From: a virus
Direction: 5' to 3' (one strand)
Virus record (IMG/VR): IMGVR_UViG_3300037264_003921
Coordinates: 61,264-125,263 of that record
Length of the DNA: 64,000 bases
Of this stretch, positions 11,858-61,443 are shown one piece after another. The notes beneath the pieces were generated by a model that was given only the letters and a program-made list of their open reading frames with translations, did no database searches and was not told where the DNA came from. A program made the translations under genes and the position numbers. How positions within the stretch are numbered: position 1 is the stretch's first letter; the number at the start of each line of letters is the position of its first letter.

Positions 11858-13321
11858 ATGTATTTTATACTTATGGACCTTAGTAATTATAAAACAAACG
11901 ATATAATAGACATACAATGTAATAAATGCAATAAACCATATTCTCGTAAAAAACGTAGTCTAATTAAAGCCATCAAAAAGCATAGAACATTTTTATGTGC
12001 CTCATGTATAATGTACATGCAATCTGATAAATTAAGTTACAGAATTAAACTATTAAATGCTGATCCTGAATGGCACCGCAAAGTATCAGATGGCGTACAT
12101 CGTGCTCACATTGATGGAAAATTTAAAAATAAGTCGGCTATAGTCAAGGATAGATGGAAAACTAATCCAAAATCATTCAATATATCACAATCACCAGAAC
12201 GTTCAGAACATATATCATCTTCATTGAAAAAACATTATAAAGTTAAAGCCAACCGCGATAGAACCTCAACAATAAGCAAAAAATTATGGAAAGATCCAGC
12301 ATATCGAGTTAGACGCGCCATATCTCTAGCAAAATCATGTTCTACCAATGAATACAAATTAAAATTGTCCAATGCCAGTAAAAAGATGTGGAGTGATCCA
12401 AATTACAGAAGGAAAATTCAACAATCAGCCAGCCAAAATACAACAAGCATTTTAGAGGATTTAGCTTTTAATTTAATAAAACAACTAGACCCATCATCTG
12501 AGCAATGGTTTAAACATGGTGGATGGACATTCGATATATATTCGCCAATGATGAATACATTAATAGAAATTAATGGAGACTATTTTCACTCAAAGCCTGA
12601 GACATTAAATAGAGATAAAATCAAAAAGGACTATTTTAATAAAAACTTAGCCAATAAATTTAACCTTGAATATATTAATGAATACGAATTTTATGCTATT
12701 GGCAAACTGAAAGATCGTATTAATAAAATATTCAAAATCACAAATTCGCCATTGCTTGACTTTGAACTGTCAAATGTTGATGTAAAGATGTGTACTGACA
12801 TCAGTAGTAAGACATTTTTAAGTAAATACCATTACTTATCAAAATATCGATACGGTGTCCATATTGGTGCATTTCTTAATAGCGAATTAATTGCCGTAGC
12901 TGTCTTCTCGCCAATAACACGCCAAGAAACAGCTAATCGATTAAAATTATCGTCAAATGAAATCATGGAATTATCTCGTCTATGCATCCATCCACAACGA
13001 CATAAACTCAATTTTGCTAGTTGGTTTATTGCACATGCAACAAAATTATTAAAATCAACAAAAGAATTAAAGGCTTTAATCACCTTTGCCGACACAACAC
13101 TAGGACATGATGGCACAATTTACAAAGCTGCAAATTGGCAGTATGATGGCGACACAAAGCCAACTTACTGGTACATTGATAATAATGGTCATTATTACCA
13201 TAAAAAAAGCATATGGGACCAAGCATCACGTTTAAAAATGACAGAAAATGCGTATGCAGAAAAATTTAGGCTAATTAAAATAAATGGCAAAAAATTACTA
13301 CGCTTCATTAAAAAATTATAA
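11858..13321 (+). CDS. Fusion of Vsr-like nuclease and Mom-like GNAT domain, copy 2
   Basis: A 487-residue paralogue of the fusion at 6007-7554 with the same four parts: zinc ribbon (C21/C24, C47/C50), helical repeats of the type W-x-DP-x-YR near residues 145-190, a PD-(D/E)XK/Vsr-like nuclease (FDIYSP then LIEINGDYFHSKPE), and a C-terminal Mom-like domain (KYHYLSKYRYG, LSRLCIHP, FADTTLGHDGTIYKAANW). The two copies are diverged throughout, so this is not a recent duplication. It lies on the strand opposite copy 1, divergent from the virion operon and just upstream of the gp13-like gene. An internal ATG five codons in is an alternative start. Confidence 0.8.
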   Translation: MYFILMDLSNYKTNDIIDIQCNKCNKPYSRKKRSLIKAIKKHRTFLCASCIMYMQSDKLSYRIKLLNADPEWHRKVSDGVHRAHIDGKFKNKSAIVKDRWKTNPKSFNISQSPERSEHISSSLKKHYKVKANRDRTSTISKKLWKDPAYRVRRAISLAKSCSTNEYKLKLSNASKKMWSDPNYRRKIQQSASQNTTSILEDLAFNLIKQLDPSSEQWFKHGGWTFDIYSPMMNTLIEINGDYFHSKPETLNRDKIKKDYFNKNLANKFNLEYINEYEFYAIGKLKDRINKIFKITNSPLLDFELSNVDVKMCTDISSKTFLSKYHYLSKYRYGVHIGAFLNSELIAVAVFSPITRQETANRLKLSSNEIMELSRLCIHPQRHKLNFASWFIAHATKLLKSTKELKALITFADTTLGHDGTIYKAANWQYDGDTKPTYWYIDNNGHYYHKKSIWDQASRLKMTENAYAEKFRLIKINGKKLLRFIKKL

Positions 13322-40013: not shown

Positions 40014-40799
40014 GTGGGTGATTTTACATGGATATTGGGTCCTTGTTCTATGGAGGATTATAATAATTATATCAACACCGCTCAATCATTGAATGATATA
40101 ATGGGGAATAGGGATTGGTATTATAAGGCATCATTTGATAAAGCAAATAGAAAAACAATAACAAGCAGCCGTGGTCCTGGGTTAGAATTGGGATTAGAGT
40201 TTATTTCATCATTAAAGCGAATCCTGCCTAATATAAAATTAACAACTGATGTCCATGATTGCAGCCAAGTGGAGAGATTAGTTGGCTACGTTGATTTAAT
40301 TCAAATCCCTGCATTCTTATGTAGGCAAACTGATTTGTTAGTTGAATGCGGCAAATATTTTAATATTGTAAATGTTAAACGTGGACAATGGGTGAGCCCT
40401 AAAGACACAGCATATTTTGCCAGCAAGATTAAGTCTAAAAACAACAAAGCTACAGTTTGGATCACAGATCGTGGTACAATGTTTGGATATGACAAATTAC
40501 TGGTTGATTTTGACGCAGCATCTGAGATTAGAAATCATTGTGATAAAGTATTATTAGATTGTACGCATTCTACTCAGGTTAGAGATGGCCAAAAGACAGG
40601 CGGTAATAGAGCGTTAGCTGAGAAATATTTATTGGCATCATCTGTGTTTAATTATGGTGGAGTATTTGCTGAAGTACATGGAAACCCACCAACAGCTATT
40701 TCTGATAGTGATTCACAAATATATCTTAGCAGAATTAGTGGACTAATAAAATTGAGAGAGAAGCTAGTTAACGATCTTAGCAATAGTATAATTGAATAA
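40014..40799 (+). CDS. kdsA: KDO-8-phosphate synthase (KdsA)
   Basis: The 261-residue protein follows the KdsA family along its length: ILGPCSMED, KASFDKANR, SSRGPGLELGL, TDVHD, QIPAFLCRQTDLL, VNVKRGQWVSP, DRGTMFGYDKLLVD, DCTHSTQ and EVHGNPPTAISD. The enzyme joins phosphoenolpyruvate and arabinose-5-phosphate to give 3-deoxy-D-manno-octulosonate 8-phosphate for lipopolysaccharide. The start is GTG. In a phage it is an auxiliary gene that could sustain or alter host LPS, or supply a sugar for virion glycans. It uses the phage's AT-rich codons, so it has been in phage for a long time. Confidence 0.9.
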   Translation: MGDFTWILGPCSMEDYNNYINTAQSLNDIMGNRDWYYKASFDKANRKTITSSRGPGLELGLEFISSLKRILPNIKLTTDVHDCSQVERLVGYVDLIQIPAFLCRQTDLLVECGKYFNIVNVKRGQWVSPKDTAYFASKIKSKNNKATVWITDRGTMFGYDKLLVDFDAASEIRNHCDKVLLDCTHSTQVRDGQKTGGNRALAEKYLLASSVFNYGGVFAEVHGNPPTAISDSDSQIYLSRISGLIKLREKLVNDLSNSIIE

Positions 40800-41800: not shown

Positions 41801-42301
41801 ATGGTAAGTGATTATATTTTTATGCAAAATAATGTAGCCTCATGGAGCTGGAGTGACTCAAACACTGTAGGCCAAATAATTACGGCTCCAAGTGTGACTC
41901 CAGCTGGGACTTATACCATTCCAAGCGTGACTCCAAGTGTGACTCCAAGTGTGACTCCAAGTGTGACATCAACTGGGACTTATCCCACCTTTGGAATTTA
42001 TACCCATTATGCCCCACCACAAATTTCAAAGAATGGCAATAAAGCTGAAATATTGTCTGATTTCTTCAGTCCTGGGGTTAATGCGCTTGTGATTATGGGT
42101 AATGATGGAGCTAGATTTATACCATTTATGGATAAATTTGGCATGATTTGGATGCAAAATGGCAATGCATGGTTTGCATTTGACAAGAAAGCATTTTTAG
42201 AATTTGTTGATAATGATAGTATTGATACTTTCTCTGAGTCAGCATTGTCAAAAGACGATGTCTTAAAGAAATTATACAATCCAGAAGTGAAGCATGAATA
42301 G
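41801..42301 (+). CDS. Hypothetical protein with TPSV repeats (paralogue 1)
   Basis: The 166-residue protein starts immediately after datZ, with an AGGAG site in the end of that gene. Residues 30-60 contain a run of Thr-Pro-Ser-Val units. The C-terminal 100 residues (NKAEILSDFFSPGVNALVI ... FMDKFGMIWMQ ... WFAFDKKAF) are related to the next gene. It is probably a small multimeric domain with a flexible N-terminal linker. Function unknown. Confidence 0.6.
   Translation: MVSDYIFMQNNVASWSWSDSNTVGQIITAPSVTPAGTYTIPSVTPSVTPSVTPSVTSTGTYPTFGIYTHYAPPQISKNGNKAEILSDFFSPGVNALVIMGNDGARFIPFMDKFGMIWMQNGNAWFAFDKKAFLEFVDNDSIDTFSESALSKDDVLKKLYNPEVKHE
41921..41968 (+). repeat. Four 12-bp tandem repeats within a coding region
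   Basis: Units CCAAGTGTGACT (first unit with one change, last with one) encode Thr-Pro-Ser-Val repeats. A flanking pair of related 24-base stretches (GTGAC-TCCAGCTGGGACTTA and GTGAC-ATCAACTGGGACTTA types) lies at about 41893 and 41963, so the array has expanded by duplication. Confidence 0.8.
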
Positions 42302-42650
42302 TTGGCCTGGATCGTCGGCGACGATGTCTGCTGTGTTTTCTACATCTATTAAAGAAATGATAATATCAACGCCAGATTCTCCATTAAAATTCTTTAAAAG
42401 TGGTGGGATTAAAATCGATGTATTAACTTCATTCTTCGGCGATGGGATGCATGCAGTTTTCTTCGGTGGAGAGCATTCCATCGTTATGCCATTTATTGAT
42501 CGATTAGGGTTGATTTGGATATCAACACATATTGGTTGGATCCCAGTTGATAAGAACGAATTTGATAATTTTACTACAAATGACGATTGTGTAGAATTAA
42601 AAGCTTGTGATCATAAGACTACAATCTCTAAGATGTCGATTCCAACGTAG
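42294..42650 (+). CDS. Hypothetical protein (paralogue 2)
   Basis: A 118-residue protein that overlaps the previous gene by 8 bases and resembles its C-terminal domain: KIDVLTSFFGDGMHAVFF, then PFIDRLGLIWIS, then WIPVDKNEFDNF. It lacks the TPSV linker. The pair arose by tandem duplication and then diverged. Function unknown. Confidence 0.6.
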   Translation: MNSWPGSSATMSAVFSTSIKEMIISTPDSPLKFFKSGGIKIDVLTSFFGDGMHAVFFGGEHSIVMPFIDRLGLIWISTHIGWIPVDKNEFDNFTTNDDCVELKACDHKTTISKMSIPT

Positions 42651-42668: not shown

Positions 42669-44078
42669 ATGAACGTTGACGATGATTTAGCTGGAGTAGA
42701 ACTTGCAGCTAAAAAGTATGCTGGACCTAGCGACTTTACACATTTACACACACACAGTCTGTTTTCTACACTTGATGGGGTGTCAACACCTGAACAATAC
42801 ATTAAAAGATGTGCACAAGTCGGCATGAAGAATTTTGCGCTCACAGACCATGGGAGCATGGCAGGTTTGCCAGATGCATATTGGGCTTCGAAAGAACATG
42901 GAATAAAACTGGCGGCAGGTTGTGAGATATATCTAAATGACTTTCATTTAAAAATGAAGGAATATCAAAATAAAGGGATTCAATTAAACACTTTAAAAAT
43001 TACAGATAAAGAATTTGTTGATCGATATCGTCGCAATAGGCATGTCACTGTAATTTGCAAAAACATGACTGGATATAAAAATCTAATCAATATACTGCAT
43101 GATGGCTATGAAATGGGTTTGTATTATAATAAACCAAGAACGTGGTTTGACCAACTTGTTAAATATAAAGAAGGATTAATAATCCTCTCTGGATGTCTAA
43201 ATGGGCCAGTTTGCCATGAATTAAGACTAGGCTCAGAAAAAAGGGACAACAATGATAGCAGTGCTACTGTTTATTATAAGAAGGCCGTTGATTATGTTAA
43301 TAAATTCAAAGGAGCATTTGGTGAGGATTTCTACTTAGAATTGCAAATGCCAGGTGAGTCAATAGCACGAGCAAAAGAAGTATTTTATCAAGTTTCTGCT
43401 ATTTCTCAGAAGACAGGTATAAAAGCTGTGATGACTGGTGATATCCATTATCTTCATCGTGCAGATTTTGAATTACAAAAGGCTATGATGGCTGTTGAGC
43501 AAGGAACAACAGTTGACGACCCAAATCTGTTCCATGTAGATTCAGATGAGGGGTTTTTTAAAACAAGAGCCCAATTCAGACAGACGTTCATAGAACATAG
43601 CTATAACAAATATGATCAAATAGGTTGGTTTGAAAAGTCATGCGACAACACAATGGAAGTTGCTGAGAAATGTAAGCAATTTGAGCCCGATCTGACACCT
43701 AAATTGCCTGAAATACAAGGAGCAGATCAAAAGATTAAACAATTGGTTGCTGAGTCATTAATAAAAAAAGGATTGCATAATAATCAAACTAAATATGTTG
43801 TTGATGGATGTATGGTTACATATGTTGAGCAAGCTAAGATAGAATTAGCGAGAATTATAGAGAAAAAATTTTCATCATACTTTTTAATAACAAGAAATTT
43901 AGTGCATTTCGCTAGGGATAATAAATATGATGTTGGTCCTGCACGTGGTAGTGCTGGCGGTAGTTTAATTTGTTATTTATTGGGGATTCATGAGCTTGAC
44001 CCGCTTTTGTGGGGATTAAGTTTTGATAGATTTTTAAGCCCAAGTAGAGGTGGATTTATGTTGAATGTGAAGATGTAA
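42669..44078 (+). CDS. dnaE: DNA polymerase III alpha (DnaE), N-terminal part
   Basis: The 469-residue protein is the first part of a DnaE-type polymerase. The PHP domain starts HLHTHSLFSTLDG with LTDHGSMAG following. The palm begins after about residue 380 with KKFSSYFLITRNLV, VGPARGSAGGSL (the Gly-rich nucleotide-binding loop of DnaE) and LDPLLWGLSFDRFLSPSRGG. It ends soon after, at NVKM, just before the position of the catalytic Asp pair. The rest of the palm, fingers and C-terminal domains are encoded from 44866 to 47670. Two separate polypeptides must assemble to make an active enzyme. Confidence 0.88.
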   Translation: MNVDDDLAGVELAAKKYAGPSDFTHLHTHSLFSTLDGVSTPEQYIKRCAQVGMKNFALTDHGSMAGLPDAYWASKEHGIKLAAGCEIYLNDFHLKMKEYQNKGIQLNTLKITDKEFVDRYRRNRHVTVICKNMTGYKNLINILHDGYEMGLYYNKPRTWFDQLVKYKEGLIILSGCLNGPVCHELRLGSEKRDNNDSSATVYYKKAVDYVNKFKGAFGEDFYLELQMPGESIARAKEVFYQVSAISQKTGIKAVMTGDIHYLHRADFELQKAMMAVEQGTTVDDPNLFHVDSDEGFFKTRAQFRQTFIEHSYNKYDQIGWFEKSCDNTMEVAEKCKQFEPDLTPKLPEIQGADQKIKQLVAESLIKKGLHNNQTKYVVDGCMVTYVEQAKIELARIIEKKFSSYFLITRNLVHFARDNKYDVGPARGSAGGSLICYLLGIHELDPLLWGLSFDRFLSPSRGGFMLNVKM

Positions 44079-44079
44079 T

Positions 44080-44484
44080 ATGAATGAAATTACTAACGAA
44101 CATATTAAACAACTGGCCGCTGAAGCACAATCCACAACAGCGCTGCTAACTTTATTCACAAGCGGAATGCGCCAGAATGAGAACGAAGAAGTATCGTTGG
44201 TTCCATATTATCTCAAATGGATTGATGTAACAAACATAGCATTAGCTAATATGAGTGAAACTATCGACCAAGATACAAAAAAGAAATTAGCTGATGATTT
44301 AATTGCATTAATGACAATACCATTAAACGGGATGATGCGCGCTATTATTCAACACGCTAATAATAAATCTATAAATCTACCACCAATGCCACAACCATTA
44401 CCAGCAGGAGTTTTTGAGTATAAAAAATGGGCGGTTGATTACATTAAGCAGTCATTAGCGGCTATAAAGGAGCATATAAAATGA
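44080..44484 (+). CDS. Hypothetical protein inserted between the dnaE parts
   Basis: A 134-residue helical protein (MNEITNEHIKQLAAEAQST...) that starts 2 bases after the first dnaE part and overlaps the following gene by 4 bases. A NKSINLPPMPQPLPAG linker precedes the last helix. No nuclease or intron-encoded motif is visible. Function unknown; conserved position beside a polymerase would suggest a replication accessory. Confidence 0.6.
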   Translation: MNEITNEHIKQLAAEAQSTTALLTLFTSGMRQNENEEVSLVPYYLKWIDVTNIALANMSETIDQDTKKKLADDLIALMTIPLNGMMRAIIQHANNKSINLPPMPQPLPAGVFEYKKWAVDYIKQSLAAIKEHIK

Positions 44485-44873
44485 AAATTGAAGGAACAGT
44501 GTATGGATACTCTAATAATGGGAAAACTGCGTTTGGTGTGATGATGGAATGTGGTGATACTAAATATGAAAAAATCATCGCACTAAAATCTGGAAATTTG
44601 AATGTAGCAGAATTGCATGCTGCTGAATACGCATTTAAGTGTATAGCAAATAAGGATTCAGAAGTGTCAATTATGACATGTAATACATACCTGAAGAGGA
44701 TGCTTGATAAGAATGATGAAAAACAATTCAAGTCGAAGCCTGAAAAAAACATTGATTTAGTCAATGCTGTCAGGAATGCTGCCAATGAATTCAAGAATTT
44801 AGTTATAAACATTGGCAAGTCAGATTCTCTACGTAGAATACAAGAGTCAACTAGAGCTTTATGTAATGAATAA
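44481..44873 (+). CDS. RNase HI-fold protein lacking catalytic aspartates
   Basis: The 130-residue protein has the RNase HI outline: TVYGYSNNGKTAFGVM for the first strands, VAELHAAEYAFKC for the Glu-bearing helix, and VSIMTCNTYLKRM for the strand that normally carries TDS. The first Asp is replaced by Tyr-Gly-Tyr and the TDS Asp by Cys, so only the Glu remains. It is probably an inactive, binding-only relative. It overlaps the start of the next dnaE piece. Low-confidence fold assignment. Confidence 0.5.
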   Translation: MKIEGTVYGYSNNGKTAFGVMMECGDTKYEKIIALKSGNLNVAELHAAEYAFKCIANKDSEVSIMTCNTYLKRMLDKNDEKQFKSKPEKNIDLVNAVRNAANEFKNLVINIGKSDSLRRIQESTRALCNE

Positions 44874-45270
44874 CAAATCTAAGAAGCTGATTTCATGGGA
44901 TGAATTAAAAAAAACAGCCATAAGCAAATGTAGTGGTTATTCTCATGAATATTTAAATCGCCTTAAATTTGAGATAATTGAAATCGAAAAACAGGGAGCC
45001 TCAGATTATTGGATAGATATAGCCATATCTGATAGGAAATTCAACGATAATAAAAACGGGCTGGTTTTACCATTTTTGTTAGATGTAACAGATGTTGACC
45101 CAATAAAAAAGCGAACGTTCGTATTAGATAATTCCGGGGTTGAATGTGATATTACAATATTGACACTAGATGACGGTAAAAAAATTACAATACCAAGTAA
45201 ATGCACAATACAAACACCAAATGGGCCAAAATCTGTGATTAGTTTGCAAGTTGGTGATGAACTCGTTTAG
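44866..45270 (+). CDS. dnaE: dnaE second part, fragment a
   Basis: The 134-residue ORF reads ISWDELKKTAISKCSGYS, then EIIEIEKQGASDYWID and NGLVLPFLLDVTDVDPI. I recognise this as the opening of the second polypeptide in phages with split DnaE, which runs directly into a DFPDxDID motif. Here a beta-rich segment (TILTLDDGKKITIPSKC, TPNGPKSVISLQVGDEL) follows and the frame stops. The next pieces are in other frames. Confidence 0.6.
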   Translation: MNNKSKKLISWDELKKTAISKCSGYSHEYLNRLKFEIIEIEKQGASDYWIDIAISDRKFNDNKNGLVLPFLLDVTDVDPIKKRTFVLDNSGVECDITILTLDDGKKITIPSKCTIQTPNGPKSVISLQVGDELV

Positions 45271-45364
45271 CGTCAGTGGCGATGGTAATATTTTGACAAA
45301 TCTGTGGATTGAATTGCCACAGTTACATAAGTCAGTAATAGATTATAAGGACGTTAATGTCTAA
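45257..45364 (+). CDS. dnaE second part, fragment b (35-residue ORF in +1 frame)
   Basis: The ATG lies inside the end of fragment a (overlap 14 bases) and the stop overlaps the start of fragment c. It reads MNSFSVSGDGNILTNL and ends YKDVNV. It contains a short dyad (CTGTGG...CCACAG). It may be a coupled small gene, or the +1-shifted continuation of the region before it. Confidence 0.35.
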   Translation: MNSFSVSGDGNILTNLWIELPQLHKSVIDYKDVNV

Positions 45365-45500
45365 AATTGTTAATATATCAATAGAGAAAGGTAAGTGCCG
45401 GGAAGTTATATCAGATGGATATTCAATCCAAAATGTGAGTGTAATCGGTGTTGGGATTAGTCACATGATTGAATACCAGACTGACTTCCCGGATGTTTGA
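45357..45500 (+). CDS. dnaE second part, fragment c, ending DFPDV
   Basis: A 47-residue ORF (MSKIVNISIEKGKCREV...) whose last residues are MIEYQTDFPDV. In DnaE proteins DFPD(I/V) directly precedes the catalytic Asp-x-Asp. The frame stops with TGA in GTT TGA C, and the next frame continues with GAC ATT GAT (Asp-Ile-Asp). Reading on by a +1 shift would give FPDVDIDLLPG, the conserved motif. Confidence 0.5.
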   Translation: MSKIVNISIEKGKCREVISDGYSIQNVSVIGVGISHMIEYQTDFPDV

Positions 45501-47670
45501 CATTGATCTATTGCCTGGTACGCGAGAAAAAGTTGAAGCTTTTGCTGCAAAAGAATATGGCAGTGACAAAGTATGTAGCGTCGGGCTGTGGCAGACATAT
45601 AAGCCAAAACTTGCGCTACAAGATGCTGCGAGGGCGCTTGGATATGATGTTGAAAATGTAATAAGATTAACAAAGAATTTACCTGATGAATTTGATGATC
45701 TTGAATATAAAGAAGCAATTGCTGAATATAATGATTTCAGAGTTTTTGCAGAAACAAATTCGCAATTAGTAAAAATGGCCTACAGGATGGTAGGTGGAAT
45801 AAAGGCACAAGGAAGACACGCAGGCGGACTAATTATATCAAGTGTCCCAATAAAAGACCATATTCCAATGACTATCTGTAGTGAACGATGGACAAGCGCG
45901 TGGACAGAAGGATATAGCCCACAATTATCAAAATTTGGATTTGTGAAATTTGATTTGCTTGGATTGAAAACTTTACTATATATAAAAACGTGCTTGGAAC
46001 TTATTGAAAAAAACCGTGGTATTAAAATAGAATGGTCAGATATAAATCCAGCAGAAGACCGAGCTGGATGGTTAATTGACCAACAAGGTAAACGAAGTGC
46101 TATATCATTGAATGATGAAGAGTCTCTAGATTTAGCTAGACAACTGCGTACAGAAACAGTGTTTCAGTTTGAGACTGAGTTAGCTAAAAGCATCTTAGCA
46201 AAAGGTGGTGTCAAATCGTTTAATGATTTGGTTGTGTACACGTCGCTTGGACGTCCTGGACCGCTGCCAATGGTCGAATCATATATTAGAAGGCGTGACG
46301 GCGATGAAAAATGGGAAGACGATGAGCATCCAGAAATAACAGAACGTTTACGTAGTACATTTAATGTATGCTGTTACCAAGAACAATTGGCATCATTGTG
46401 GAGGGGCATAGCAGGATTTACTGTTCCTGAAGCAGAGGCTGCTAGGAAGGCTGTTTCTAAAAAATGGACTGACAAATTAGCACCGATTAAAGACAAGTGG
46501 GTGGCTGGAGCATCAAAAACCATTGGGGTTGAACGAGCTGAAGAATGGTGGGTAAAAATGGAAACATTCGGCCGTTATGCATTCAACCTCAGCCATGCAA
46601 CTGCATATATATTGATTACTCATAGATGTTTATATCTAAAAGCTCACTTCCAAGCTGAATGGTGGGCGGCCGTCATGTCTGATTGCGATACAGATAGATT
46701 ATCAAAGTATATGGGATACGCAAGAGCAGAAGGGGTGTCATTTGGGTCAATTGATATTGATAATCTAAGCATGAAATTTGTTATTAATAAAGAAATAGTA
46801 ACGCCGGGCTTGACTAGTATCAAAAACATGAATGGTGAATTAGCAGAAAATCTTTCTAAAAAATCTTCAAATGGCGTTAAATATAAAGATATTGATGATT
46901 TCGTATTACAAACTAGCAAGAATAAAATTGCATGTGAGCGATTAATTAAGCTTGGTGCATTTGATAATAAACATAGCAATCGCAAAGCATTATGGACGTG
47001 GTATCAATATCAATATGGAAGCGACGATGAGAGTAAGGAAATGCGAAGATTTATCAAATGTGCGTATGCATGGCCGATGGATAAAATTGAAGTAGAGAGA
47101 AAACGTCAGGCTGATGAATTTAGGAAACAATATCCAACTAGGAAAGTAATACCACCAAAGATCGCTAAATGGCTACCAAAGATGTTATTTCGGCGTGATG
47201 AATATGTAATACCTAACGTCATTGACGATGCTGTTTATGAATCAGCAAAGTATCTGCAATTAACTAGGGACAATGTGATGTCATTGGTCAACAGTGACTT
47301 CGCATTGAAGGAACTGCTTCAATTTGAAAGACAATATCTAGGATATTGCATTCATTCGCCAATGAATTTATTCAAGCATGGGTACGACACAACAATATCA
47401 GACGCACGCGAGAAAGGCATATTAGAAGCGTACATTGAAAAATTTACCATTCGTCAGAAAAAAACAGAATTCGCTGAGTTAATAGTCACAGATGGAACTG
47501 AGAATGCAAAGGTGATGGTTTGGTCTGATGATTTGTTATCGAATGGTCAAGACACATTACATGAAGGAAAAGGTGTTCGGATGCGTGTATCTTGGAAGGA
47601 TAAATTTAAGAGTTTTAGTCTTCGCTCAGGAAGTATAGTCATACCATTGGAGCCGGTCGATGCTACTTAA
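45493..47670 (+). CDS. dnaE: DNA polymerase III alpha (DnaE), main C-terminal part
   Basis: About 725 residues from the ATG that overlaps the stop of the previous ORF (ATGTTTGA). It carries the catalytic Asp pair (FDIDLLPG at its very start), then REKVEAFAAKEYG and VGLWQTYKPKLALQDAARALG, and the third catalytic Asp in FVKFDLLGLKTL, followed by fingers, a helix-hairpin-helix-like region and an OB-type domain near the end (FAELIVTDGTENAKVMVW). It lacks the beta-clamp and tau-binding tail of long DnaE. No ribosome-binding site is visible, so translation must be coupled, or reached by a frameshift from upstream. Confidence 0.9.
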   Translation: MFDIDLLPGTREKVEAFAAKEYGSDKVCSVGLWQTYKPKLALQDAARALGYDVENVIRLTKNLPDEFDDLEYKEAIAEYNDFRVFAETNSQLVKMAYRMVGGIKAQGRHAGGLIISSVPIKDHIPMTICSERWTSAWTEGYSPQLSKFGFVKFDLLGLKTLLYIKTCLELIEKNRGIKIEWSDINPAEDRAGWLIDQQGKRSAISLNDEESLDLARQLRTETVFQFETELAKSILAKGGVKSFNDLVVYTSLGRPGPLPMVESYIRRRDGDEKWEDDEHPEITERLRSTFNVCCYQEQLASLWRGIAGFTVPEAEAARKAVSKKWTDKLAPIKDKWVAGASKTIGVERAEEWWVKMETFGRYAFNLSHATAYILITHRCLYLKAHFQAEWWAAVMSDCDTDRLSKYMGYARAEGVSFGSIDIDNLSMKFVINKEIVTPGLTSIKNMNGELAENLSKKSSNGVKYKDIDDFVLQTSKNKIACERLIKLGAFDNKHSNRKALWTWYQYQYGSDDESKEMRRFIKCAYAWPMDKIEVERKRQADEFRKQYPTRKVIPPKIAKWLPKMLFRRDEYVIPNVIDDAVYESAKYLQLTRDNVMSLVNSDFALKELLQFERQYLGYCIHSPMNLFKHGYDTTISDAREKGILEAYIEKFTIRQKKTEFAELIVTDGTENAKVMVWSDDLLSNGQDTLHEGKGVRMRVSWKDKFKSFSLRSGSIVIPLEPVDAT

Positions 47671-56931: not shown

Positions 56932-58074
56932 GTGCTTTACATCTACACAGCTTTCAAAAAACCATCAAAGCCATTAGCTACCATAGTGTACGATAGCATT
57001 AACAACACTGTAGACATATATGACTTATATCTACAAGGCTCTGGATTGAAATTATACGCTGTTGAACAGCGAAAGAAATACATCGCTTCGTTGTTTGATG
57101 GTGAAGTGGCTGTAAATGATTTTAAAGCACATTTATGTGCATTTGGTCTACCAACCAATAAAGATTATAAAACCTTTGATATACCATTCACAGATGACAC
57201 TAAACAATCAAATAATGATGAACTTAAGAAAATATTGATGTCAAAAATTATTGAAATTAAAACCCAGCCACATAAAGAAACGTGGCAGTCACTTCTGTCA
57301 AACGCAACCTTGGTGTATCAAGATCTTGAAAATCGTGGTGTGTTGTTTGAATCAATGTTAGTCCATCCGATATATGGAACTAACACATTTACTGGAAGGT
57401 CGTCTACATCTGATTTTAACATACAAGGAATGGGTGATGGACAGGATATTACTTCAGTATCATATGACAATGATATTTTTGTATATGCCGATTGGATAGC
57501 TGCTGATATGCGTATGGCGTCGATAATGTCTAACGACATTGAAATGCAAAAAGCATTTGAATTGTCTGATCCATATGAATATCTCGCAACCAAGATAAAC
57601 ACTGATGTCACACGAGACGAATGCAAGAAAGCGTTATTAAGTAGCATTTATGCTCTTAATTATGATAATACAATATTAGACTTATATCCACAGTTAAAAA
57701 ACTGGATCATTAGTTCATGTGAGAAGCTCGAAATAGATAAATATCTTTCATCTATTCTTGGTAGAAAATTTCATCTAAATAAAAACAACCATAGGTCGGT
57801 GTTCAACGCAACTATTCAAGGCAGTGTAGCACATGCTATGCAAAATGTCCTTATAAAGTTGCATCAAAAAATGCCGGAGTTAATTTTAACTGAAATGCAT
57901 GATTCAGTAATATTATGTTGTAGGAAAGATCTATTAAAAAAAACGGTCGAGTTTGTAAAAGACACGATGTTACATCCATTTAACGGCATAATAGATTCTA
58001 ATCCATTATTTCCTCTCAGAGTAAGTATAGGTAACAAATGGCGTAATTGGAAACTTTTTAAAACGTATAGGTAA
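56932..58074 (+). CDS. Minimal PolA-family DNA polymerase
   Basis: The 380-residue protein has the PolA palm and fingers motifs: NTFTGRSSTSDFNIQGM near residue 150, motif A as VYADWIAADMRM (Asp conserved; the usual Glu five residues later is Asp), motif B as RDECKKALLSSIYALNYD with the Arg, Lys and Tyr in place, and motif C as EMHDSV, where the usual HDE is HDS. There is no 3'-5' exonuclease domain and only 140 residues precede the palm, so it is much shorter than Pol I or DpoZ. Start is GTG. It coexists with a DnaE-type polymerase. It may fill gaps, act in repair, or favour Z-containing templates. Confidence 0.82.
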   Translation: MLYIYTAFKKPSKPLATIVYDSINNTVDIYDLYLQGSGLKLYAVEQRKKYIASLFDGEVAVNDFKAHLCAFGLPTNKDYKTFDIPFTDDTKQSNNDELKKILMSKIIEIKTQPHKETWQSLLSNATLVYQDLENRGVLFESMLVHPIYGTNTFTGRSSTSDFNIQGMGDGQDITSVSYDNDIFVYADWIAADMRMASIMSNDIEMQKAFELSDPYEYLATKINTDVTRDECKKALLSSIYALNYDNTILDLYPQLKNWIISSCEKLEIDKYLSSILGRKFHLNKNNHRSVFNATIQGSVAHAMQNVLIKLHQKMPELILTEMHDSVILCCRKDLLKKTVEFVKDTMLHPFNGIIDSNPLFPLRVSIGNKWRNWKLFKTYR

Positions 58075-61203: not shown

Positions 61204-61443
61204 ATGAAAAAATATCTGATTTGTTTGACAGCGCTGATTTGTTTGAGTGGATGCTCGAGTCTCGACAAGGTATTTGTAAATGCTGTTGATGCTTCGTATG
61301 TTGATGTAATCCATTCAAGGTATGTTGATTATATAACGAATGACCCAACGATCGATGTGAGTACTAAACTTATCAGAGCCAAAACAGCACATGATCTAAA
61401 AGACCTTATTGAACAAGCGAAAAAGAAGCTAGATAAGGATTAG
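61204..61443 (+). CDS. Lipoprotein 2
   Basis: The 79-residue protein has a signal peptide MKKYLICLTALICLSGCSS with the lipobox LSGC. The mature part of about 60 residues is helical with a Lys/Asp-rich end. It resembles outer-membrane-spanin-sized lipoproteins, but no matching inner-membrane spanin with a long coil was found nearby. Function unknown. Confidence 0.75.
   Translation: MKKYLICLTALICLSGCSSLDKVFVNAVDASYVDVIHSRYVDYITNDPTIDVSTKLIRAKTAHDLKDLIEQAKKKLDKD

Follow-up and report, generated by a model that had tools for sequence, protein, structure and literature searches.

The window analysed here, a 64,000-nucleotide (nt) stretch covering positions 61,264 to 125,263 of the IMG/VR virus record IMGVR_UViG_3300037264_003921, encodes a family C DNA polymerase (DnaE, the alpha subunit of DNA polymerase III, or Pol III) in several pieces (Table 1). 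The PHP, palm, fingers and HhH domains follow one another in order across two long pieces, N and C. N matched PF02811 (E 1.3e-39) and PF07733 (E 1.1e-25), and C matched PF07733 (E 1e-23), PF17657 (E 2.2e-32) and PF14579 (E 3.4e-11). N ends in SPSRGGFMLNVKM, just short of the active-site motif, as do its counterparts in relatives, and C resumes at the pair of catalytic aspartates (Asp). On both points the open reading frames (ORFs) and their translations bear out an initial annotation of the same DNA. The C ORF as called mechanically starts at TTG 45469, and its three catalytic Asp (D3, D5 and D154) are invariant in an alignment with seven phage DnaE. The window is a single contig and the relatives are metagenomic contigs, found in IMG/VR through alignments with distant phage DnaE; window proteins used alone as queries found no relative there.

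Table 1. Features of the polymerase locus, in window coordinates.
Feature	Position	Strand	Description
N (chain 1)	42669..44078	+	469 aa; PHP domain, then the first part of the Pol III alpha domain; contains GPARGSAGGS
P2	44080..44484	+	Spacer gene between chains 1 and 2; homologues in L108 (38.6% identity) and L013 occupy the same position
P3	44481..44873	+	Spacer gene, RNase H-like; PF00075 E 0.00023, under the curated cut-off
P4	44866..45270	+	Residues 1-82, diverged repeat of the DnaE segment that precedes the active site; residues 88-134, stretch with predicted intein fold
35-aa ORF	45257-45364	+	Spans the P4-P5 gap; not conserved
P4-P5 gap	45271..45356	+	86 nt; possibly the remnant of a lost nuclease gene
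P5	45357..45500	+	47 aa; probable intein C-half remnant, then residues that lead up to the active site (HMIEYQTDFPDV) and TGA
Junction at catalytic motif	45490..45505	+	P5 ends GAT GTT TGA; C reads ATG TTT GAC ATT GAT
C	45493..47670	+	Catalytic Asp pair (M-F-D-I-D), rest of palm, fingers, HhH and OB-like end; likely start ATG 45493

The genes between N and C are of different kinds. P2 gave no significant family match in Pfam and PHROG profile searches, and homologues of P3 occupy the same position in L108 (43%), L091, L097 and L017. On the 1190 positions of phrog_405, N covers 42-439 and C covers 446-1051, and P4, read from ATG 44866, matched positions 347-427 again (E 0.0025). Because N already covers that segment, P4 repeats, in diverged form, the segment that precedes the active site and is not the missing middle part of DnaE. 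The initial annotation took P4 for the beginning of a second polypeptide that is broken into pieces; the piece does end at 45270, but it is not simply the head of that polypeptide, since it joins the second copy to a tail with a predicted intein fold.

The division into chain 1 and chain 2 is old, is shared across the lineage and is separate from the further fragmentation, of which the initial annotation had made it a part. About 24 related viral DnaE loci encode the polymerase in two chains. In related large phage contigs (roughly 37-66% identity in C) N is followed by spacer genes and then by chain 2, and P2 and P3 recur in some of them. An uninterrupted chain 2 has the P4 domain first and then runs unbroken into PDIDID; the closest relative, L108 (71% in N, 66% in C), has such a chain, with no insert. 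The more distant L152 (3053-6877) has chains 1 and 2 directly adjacent, and chain 2 again opens with a P4-like domain; the duplicated segment is therefore older than the spacer genes. A PHROG family of 'unknown function', phrog_7513 (461 positions), matched N over 10-448 (E 3.2e-73) and probably represents the first chain of split DnaE polymerases. An AlphaFold2 model of L108 chain 2 (mean predicted local distance difference test score, pLDDT, 84) recovered the Pol III alpha fold in a structure search. Residues 80-94 of this model, which hold PDVDID, had pLDDT below 50, and the linker is therefore not placed without chain 1. The insert and the stop described below both fall in this stretch, and an unplaced linker may explain why breaks are tolerated there.

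An insert between the P4 domain and PDIDID, with the same three breaks, was found in eight lineages: the window, L013 (also L101/L102), L018, L092, L093, L094, L146 and L118, although in L118 P4 would fall off its contig. P4 in these bearers carries about 50 further residues, mostly ending in L-x-x-G-D-E and a stop, and P5 consists of 43-51 residues that end in H-x-x-x-Y-x-x-D-x-P-D-(I/V), or near it, and a stop. The window P5, whose ATG has AAGGA 7 nt upstream, is alignable with its counterparts in seven relatives. What separates P4 from P5 differs among the bearers. The P4 stop and P5 start overlap (ATGA) in L018, which has no gap, and L093 and L094 have about 860 nt with a nuclease-like ORF on the opposite strand, matching DUF7487 above and a TnsA-like family below the curated cut-off. 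The ORF at this place in L146 encodes 497 aa and weakly matches the MTES_1575 restriction-endonuclease family. The two small ORFs listed in the initial annotation fared differently, P5 being conserved in relatives and the 35-aa ORF having no convincing counterpart. The stepwise +1 change of frame that it described from P4 through the 35-aa ORF and P5 to C is correct as geometry, but the middle steps are probably not coding, because the 35-aa ORF is not conserved and the neighbouring pieces overlap directly in L018. Positions 5235-5285 of L013 hold a 24-nt tandem duplication of the P4 end (CTTAAGATTGGTGATGAGATCTGA twice), possibly the scar of a lost part of the cassette.

The structural model of P4 suggests an intein as the probable source of the insert. 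P4 was modelled with AlphaFold2 from seven alignment rows (mean pLDDT 82). The helical part of the model (residues 5-82) superposes on about residues 279-384 of Escherichia coli Pol III alpha with Z 6-7, and the beta tail (residues 88-134) superposes on residues ~38-105 of many inteins, including 6bs8, 4kl6, 6rix, 6riz, 4qfq and 8ubs, over 42-47 residues, with a root-mean-square deviation mostly of 1.3-2.5 and Z up to 5.5. By position and length, P5 is the probable C-half of the same intein, and the two halves may bind each other. Searches of P4 and P5 profiles against PDB sequences gave chance matches only.

The splicing residues of inteins are missing. The P4 tail is without the intein's first ~45 residues and the block A nucleophile (Cys/Ser/Ala), passing from DPIKKR to the strand that resembles intein residue 45 within a few residues. 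IPSK stands in P4 in place of the TxxH of block B, and HN followed by Cys, Ser or Thr was absent near the P5 end in all eight bearers. Splicing in the known way is therefore excluded, and an active split intein was rejected. An HN near the P5 end in L146 and L118 was considered as block G and dropped, as the uninterrupted L108 has IPHN there. A group I or II intron was also rejected, with no Rfam match at the gathering score in the window and seven bearers.

Intein-like sequences occur elsewhere in these polymerases. Long intein-like insertions were seen in chain 1 of L021 (415-2235, 3196-7308) and in the middle of C in chain 2 of L105, L109 and L151; judged from these sequences, the polymerase appears to be a frequent target of such insertions. 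Chain 2 of L020 (1817-3460 and 5857-7482) has a second split, located in the fingers; other genes lie between the two halves, and an intact-looking intein C-half ends in IIVHN-S.

The stop at the active site is specific to the insert-bearing lineages. P5 terminates with FP, PD or PDx, immediately ahead of the catalytic (x)DxD, in all eight of them and in none of the 25 uninterrupted loci with the junction covered (L104, which ends at the junction, was left out), a pattern far beyond chance. The extra sequence relative to the uninterrupted gene is 1 nt in the window, measured against the same codons of L108, 2 nt in L018, L093 and L094, 6 nt in L092, 7 nt in L013 and L118, and 10 nt in L146. 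A one-base sequencing or assembly error at this last junction, in a gene that is otherwise split, would suit a window that rests on a single contig and differs from L108 by one base. Such an error is extremely unlikely: the stop lies at the same place in seven other lineages with other lengths of extra sequence, one of those junctions is identical in two IMG/VR records (L013/L102), and P4 would stay a separate ORF anyway. The initial annotation had also considered assembly error less likely. The break thus appears to be inherited across related lineages.

The position of the break raises the question of how C is translated. The window TGA (45498-45500) is overlapped by ATG 45493, which is available as the start of C, and a coupled restart is proposed there, with recoding or non-AUG starts in relatives. 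A multi-chain enzyme with translational coupling, one of the possibilities raised in the initial annotation, fits the window best, given two-chain relatives, a chain 2 that is broken further, and overlapping starts and stops. The frame of C contains no ATG, GTG or TTG from the previous stop to DxD in five of the eight bearers (L018, L092, L093, L094 and L146). Over the 22 codons that separate DxD from the first possible start, L018, L093 and L094 differ mostly synonymously (proportions of synonymous and nonsynonymous differences, ps 0.79 and pn 0.18), and this contrast is gone in the other two frames. The stretch is therefore translated in these three by a route not visible in the sequence, perhaps a frameshift or hop, perhaps initiation at ATA or ATT.

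The same cassette relic could instead leave P5 and C as one polypeptide, the ribosome stopping after PD(x) and resuming at DxD by a short hop or frameshift, comparable to T4 gene 60 but over 1-10 nt. This is unlikely, although recoding at the last junction alone is attractive in relatives without a start codon, where, in the L018 clade, purifying selection acts on the start-less stretch. When the last codon ahead of the stop is compared with the one ahead of the resume point, L013 (GAC/GAC) and L018, L093 and L094 (ATA/ATA) have the same codon twice, and L092 (ATA/ATT) and L146 (GAT/GAC) have synonymous codons; resuming at the matched codon restores the canonical PDxDxD. The match fails in the window (GTT/TTT) and in L118 (CCA/CGT), and duplication of just two bases could account for that of ATA with ATA. 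At the window junction, GTT TGA C is like an RF2 site, but it differs from CUU UGA C with an upstream Shine-Dalgarno-like sequence, the upstream sequence ACTGACTTCCCGGAT containing no such element. RNA structure at the junctions gave no consistent signal, the exceptions being upstream of the junction in L013 (z -3.2) and L092 (z -2.1). In the five bearers without a standard start, non-AUG initiation at ATA or ATT ahead of DxD is an alternative, and the window has a usable ATG. Offsets that vary by lineage led to rejection of a conserved programmed frameshift. The staged +1, +1, +1 frameshifting suggested by the initial annotation fails likewise, as relatives break at the same codon with differing offsets (in frame, +1, +2/-1) and the middle ORF is not conserved. 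An altered genetic code was rejected because TAA, TAG and TGA all terminate genes in these loci; a suppressor tRNA was also considered, and no tRNA was found within the 64-kb window.

The insert is distributed patchily. In a tree of C chains, whose bootstrap had not settled and in which L152 and L022 form long branches, bearers stand in several places, with six changes, and a tree constrained to hold them in one clade was rejected (approximately unbiased test, p 3e-14). Three bearers pair with an uninterrupted sister: the window with L108 (100/99), L146 with L145 (100/100) and L092 with L155 (98/95). Residues that flank the insert appear native to the respective lineage; TDFPDVDIDLLPGTREKVE is shared by the window and L108. 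Repeated gain by homing would explain this distribution best, the alternative being repeated precise loss.

Selection on the pieces argues against decay, which the initial annotation had listed among its possibilities. In such a view chain 2 would be a pseudogene whose role another polymerase has taken over, in keeping with the several stops and with a family A polymerase-like gene at 56932-58074. This is very unlikely. Bearers show no consistent excess in branch length over their uninterrupted sisters (window 0.19 vs. L108 0.35; L146 0.27 vs. L145 0.38; L092 0.26 vs. L155 0.18), the stops fall at the same codon in eight lineages, C contains no further stops, and the catalytic residues are kept. 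The ratio of nonsynonymous to synonymous substitution rates (dN/dS) among L018, L093 and L094 was 0.06-0.24 for P5 and 0.07-0.19 for the first 150 codons of C, by a simple count that is near saturation. P5 and C are thus under purifying selection in the L018 clade, which, with the branch lengths, makes both error and decay unlikely.

We favor the interpretation that the locus is the relic of a homing intein cassette in a two-chain DnaE that has left a four-chain enzyme, with a probability of about 0.68. A homing cassette based on a split intein would have invaded chain 2 and then degenerated, the intein halves losing their splicing residues and the nuclease gene shrinking to the P4-P5 gap. A one-base length difference at the PDVDID codons would have placed a stop after PDV. 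The four encoded chains would be N; P4, a palm-copy domain with half an intein fold; P5, the other half with residues leading to the active site; and C, opening at the catalytic Asp pair. C would be made in the window by a restart coupled to termination of P5, and all chains would come together as an active polymerase. The initial annotation mentioned neither the duplicated segment nor the intein-derived insert, nor the homing-endonuclease context.

Several observations weigh against this interpretation. The window has no homing endonuclease gene between P4 and P5. The Z near 5 over 45 residues for the P4 tail is modest, Foldseek alone gave no significant E-value for the P4 model, and the Pfam and NCBIfam intein models matched neither the P4 tail nor P5. 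The five bearers without a standard start codon for C indicate that a simple view of separate chains would not serve all lineages, and in the window no Shine-Dalgarno-like sequence precedes ATG 45493. The presence of a second polymerase-like gene in the phage means that DnaE might be dispensable and that its role is not proven.

Known arrangements that involve split inteins offer comparisons. In the fractured genes of Dassa et al. (2009, NAR 37:2560), the two halves of a split intein reportedly flank a free-standing homing endonuclease gene (PMC6892783). The present locus resembles them in that a replication gene is interrupted at an intein-like segment, with a nuclease-like gene between the halves in L093, L094 and L146. 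It differs in that the intein-like halves are without splicing residues and the ~45 N-terminal residues, P5 and C are parted by a stop, and the window has no nuclease gene. Cyanobacterial DnaE is encoded by two genes with active split intein halves at the break; here, too, DnaE is split and probable intein halves occur at a break, but the cyanobacterial intein is active and at another site, and the old split between chains 1 and 2 is without an intein.

Other phage genes offer partial parallels. In T4 gene 39/mobA/gene 60, a nuclease split a topoisomerase gene, and a short 50-nt insert with a stop is bypassed (PMC5009743; PMC2988022). As there, a nuclease would have split a replication gene, a short stop-bearing insert lies a little downstream, apparently with function kept, and separate chains would assemble. 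The inserts here are 1-10 nt at the catalytic motif and differ per lineage, an intein-derived segment is present, take-off and landing codons mismatch in the window and L118, and bypass is a proposal only. As in gene 60, the stop follows right after the last codon read in all eight bearers, the window included. Aeromonas phages 25 and 44RR have polymerase genes split into 43A and 43B, whose products copurify in active form; in phage 25 a homing nuclease lies at the split (PMC2988022). A phage replicative polymerase is likewise encoded in pieces here; 43A/43B are family B and are without a duplicated segment, an intein relic or a stop at the catalytic motif. The split DNA polymerase B of jumbo phage MIJ3 has a split intein with a homing endonuclease gene between its parts (PMC6892783) and is similarly a phage polymerase interrupted by a split intein, but it is family B and its intein keeps the splicing blocks, including HNS at the end (PMC6892783). 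The locus is a proven member of neither the fractured genes nor the T4 39/mobA/60 type, because the window is without a nuclease, splicing residues and matching codons around the stop and bypass is only proposed. A literature search for split DnaE in phages found nothing direct, the subscription literature being mostly outside its reach.

If the favored interpretation is true, a replicative polymerase cut at the catalytic motif itself can stay under selection, and a dead intein can persist inside a working enzyme. A 2016 review knew of no natural case of in-frame stop hopping (PMC5009743), and the eight natural junctions, with their several offsets, provide material on whether short stop-codon hops occur in nature. 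It is conceivable, but quite doubtful, that homing intein cassettes have repeatedly left behind, as a tolerated scar, a natural short ribosomal hop over a stop at the polymerase catalytic motif, and that a split intein without splicing has been kept as a clamp holding the chains.

Other genes of the window were also noted. The family A DNA polymerase-like gene (56932-58074, + strand, 380 aa, PF00476 E 2.4e-16) has HDS and not HDE in motif C, and genes for RecA and for DnaB-like, gp32-like and 5'-3' exonuclease proteins are its neighbors. Upstream of N, two small adjoining genes on the + strand (41801-42301 and 42294-42650) resemble tandem paralogs, the first with repeated SVTP units. A DAHP synthetase I family gene (40014-40799, + strand, PF00793 E 1.4e-41) is metabolic and unusual for a phage. 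The 487-aa product of 11858-13321 (+ strand) matched Mom-like DNA modification (phrog_1384) as well as HNH/homing endonuclease families (phrog_559 and phrog_3339).

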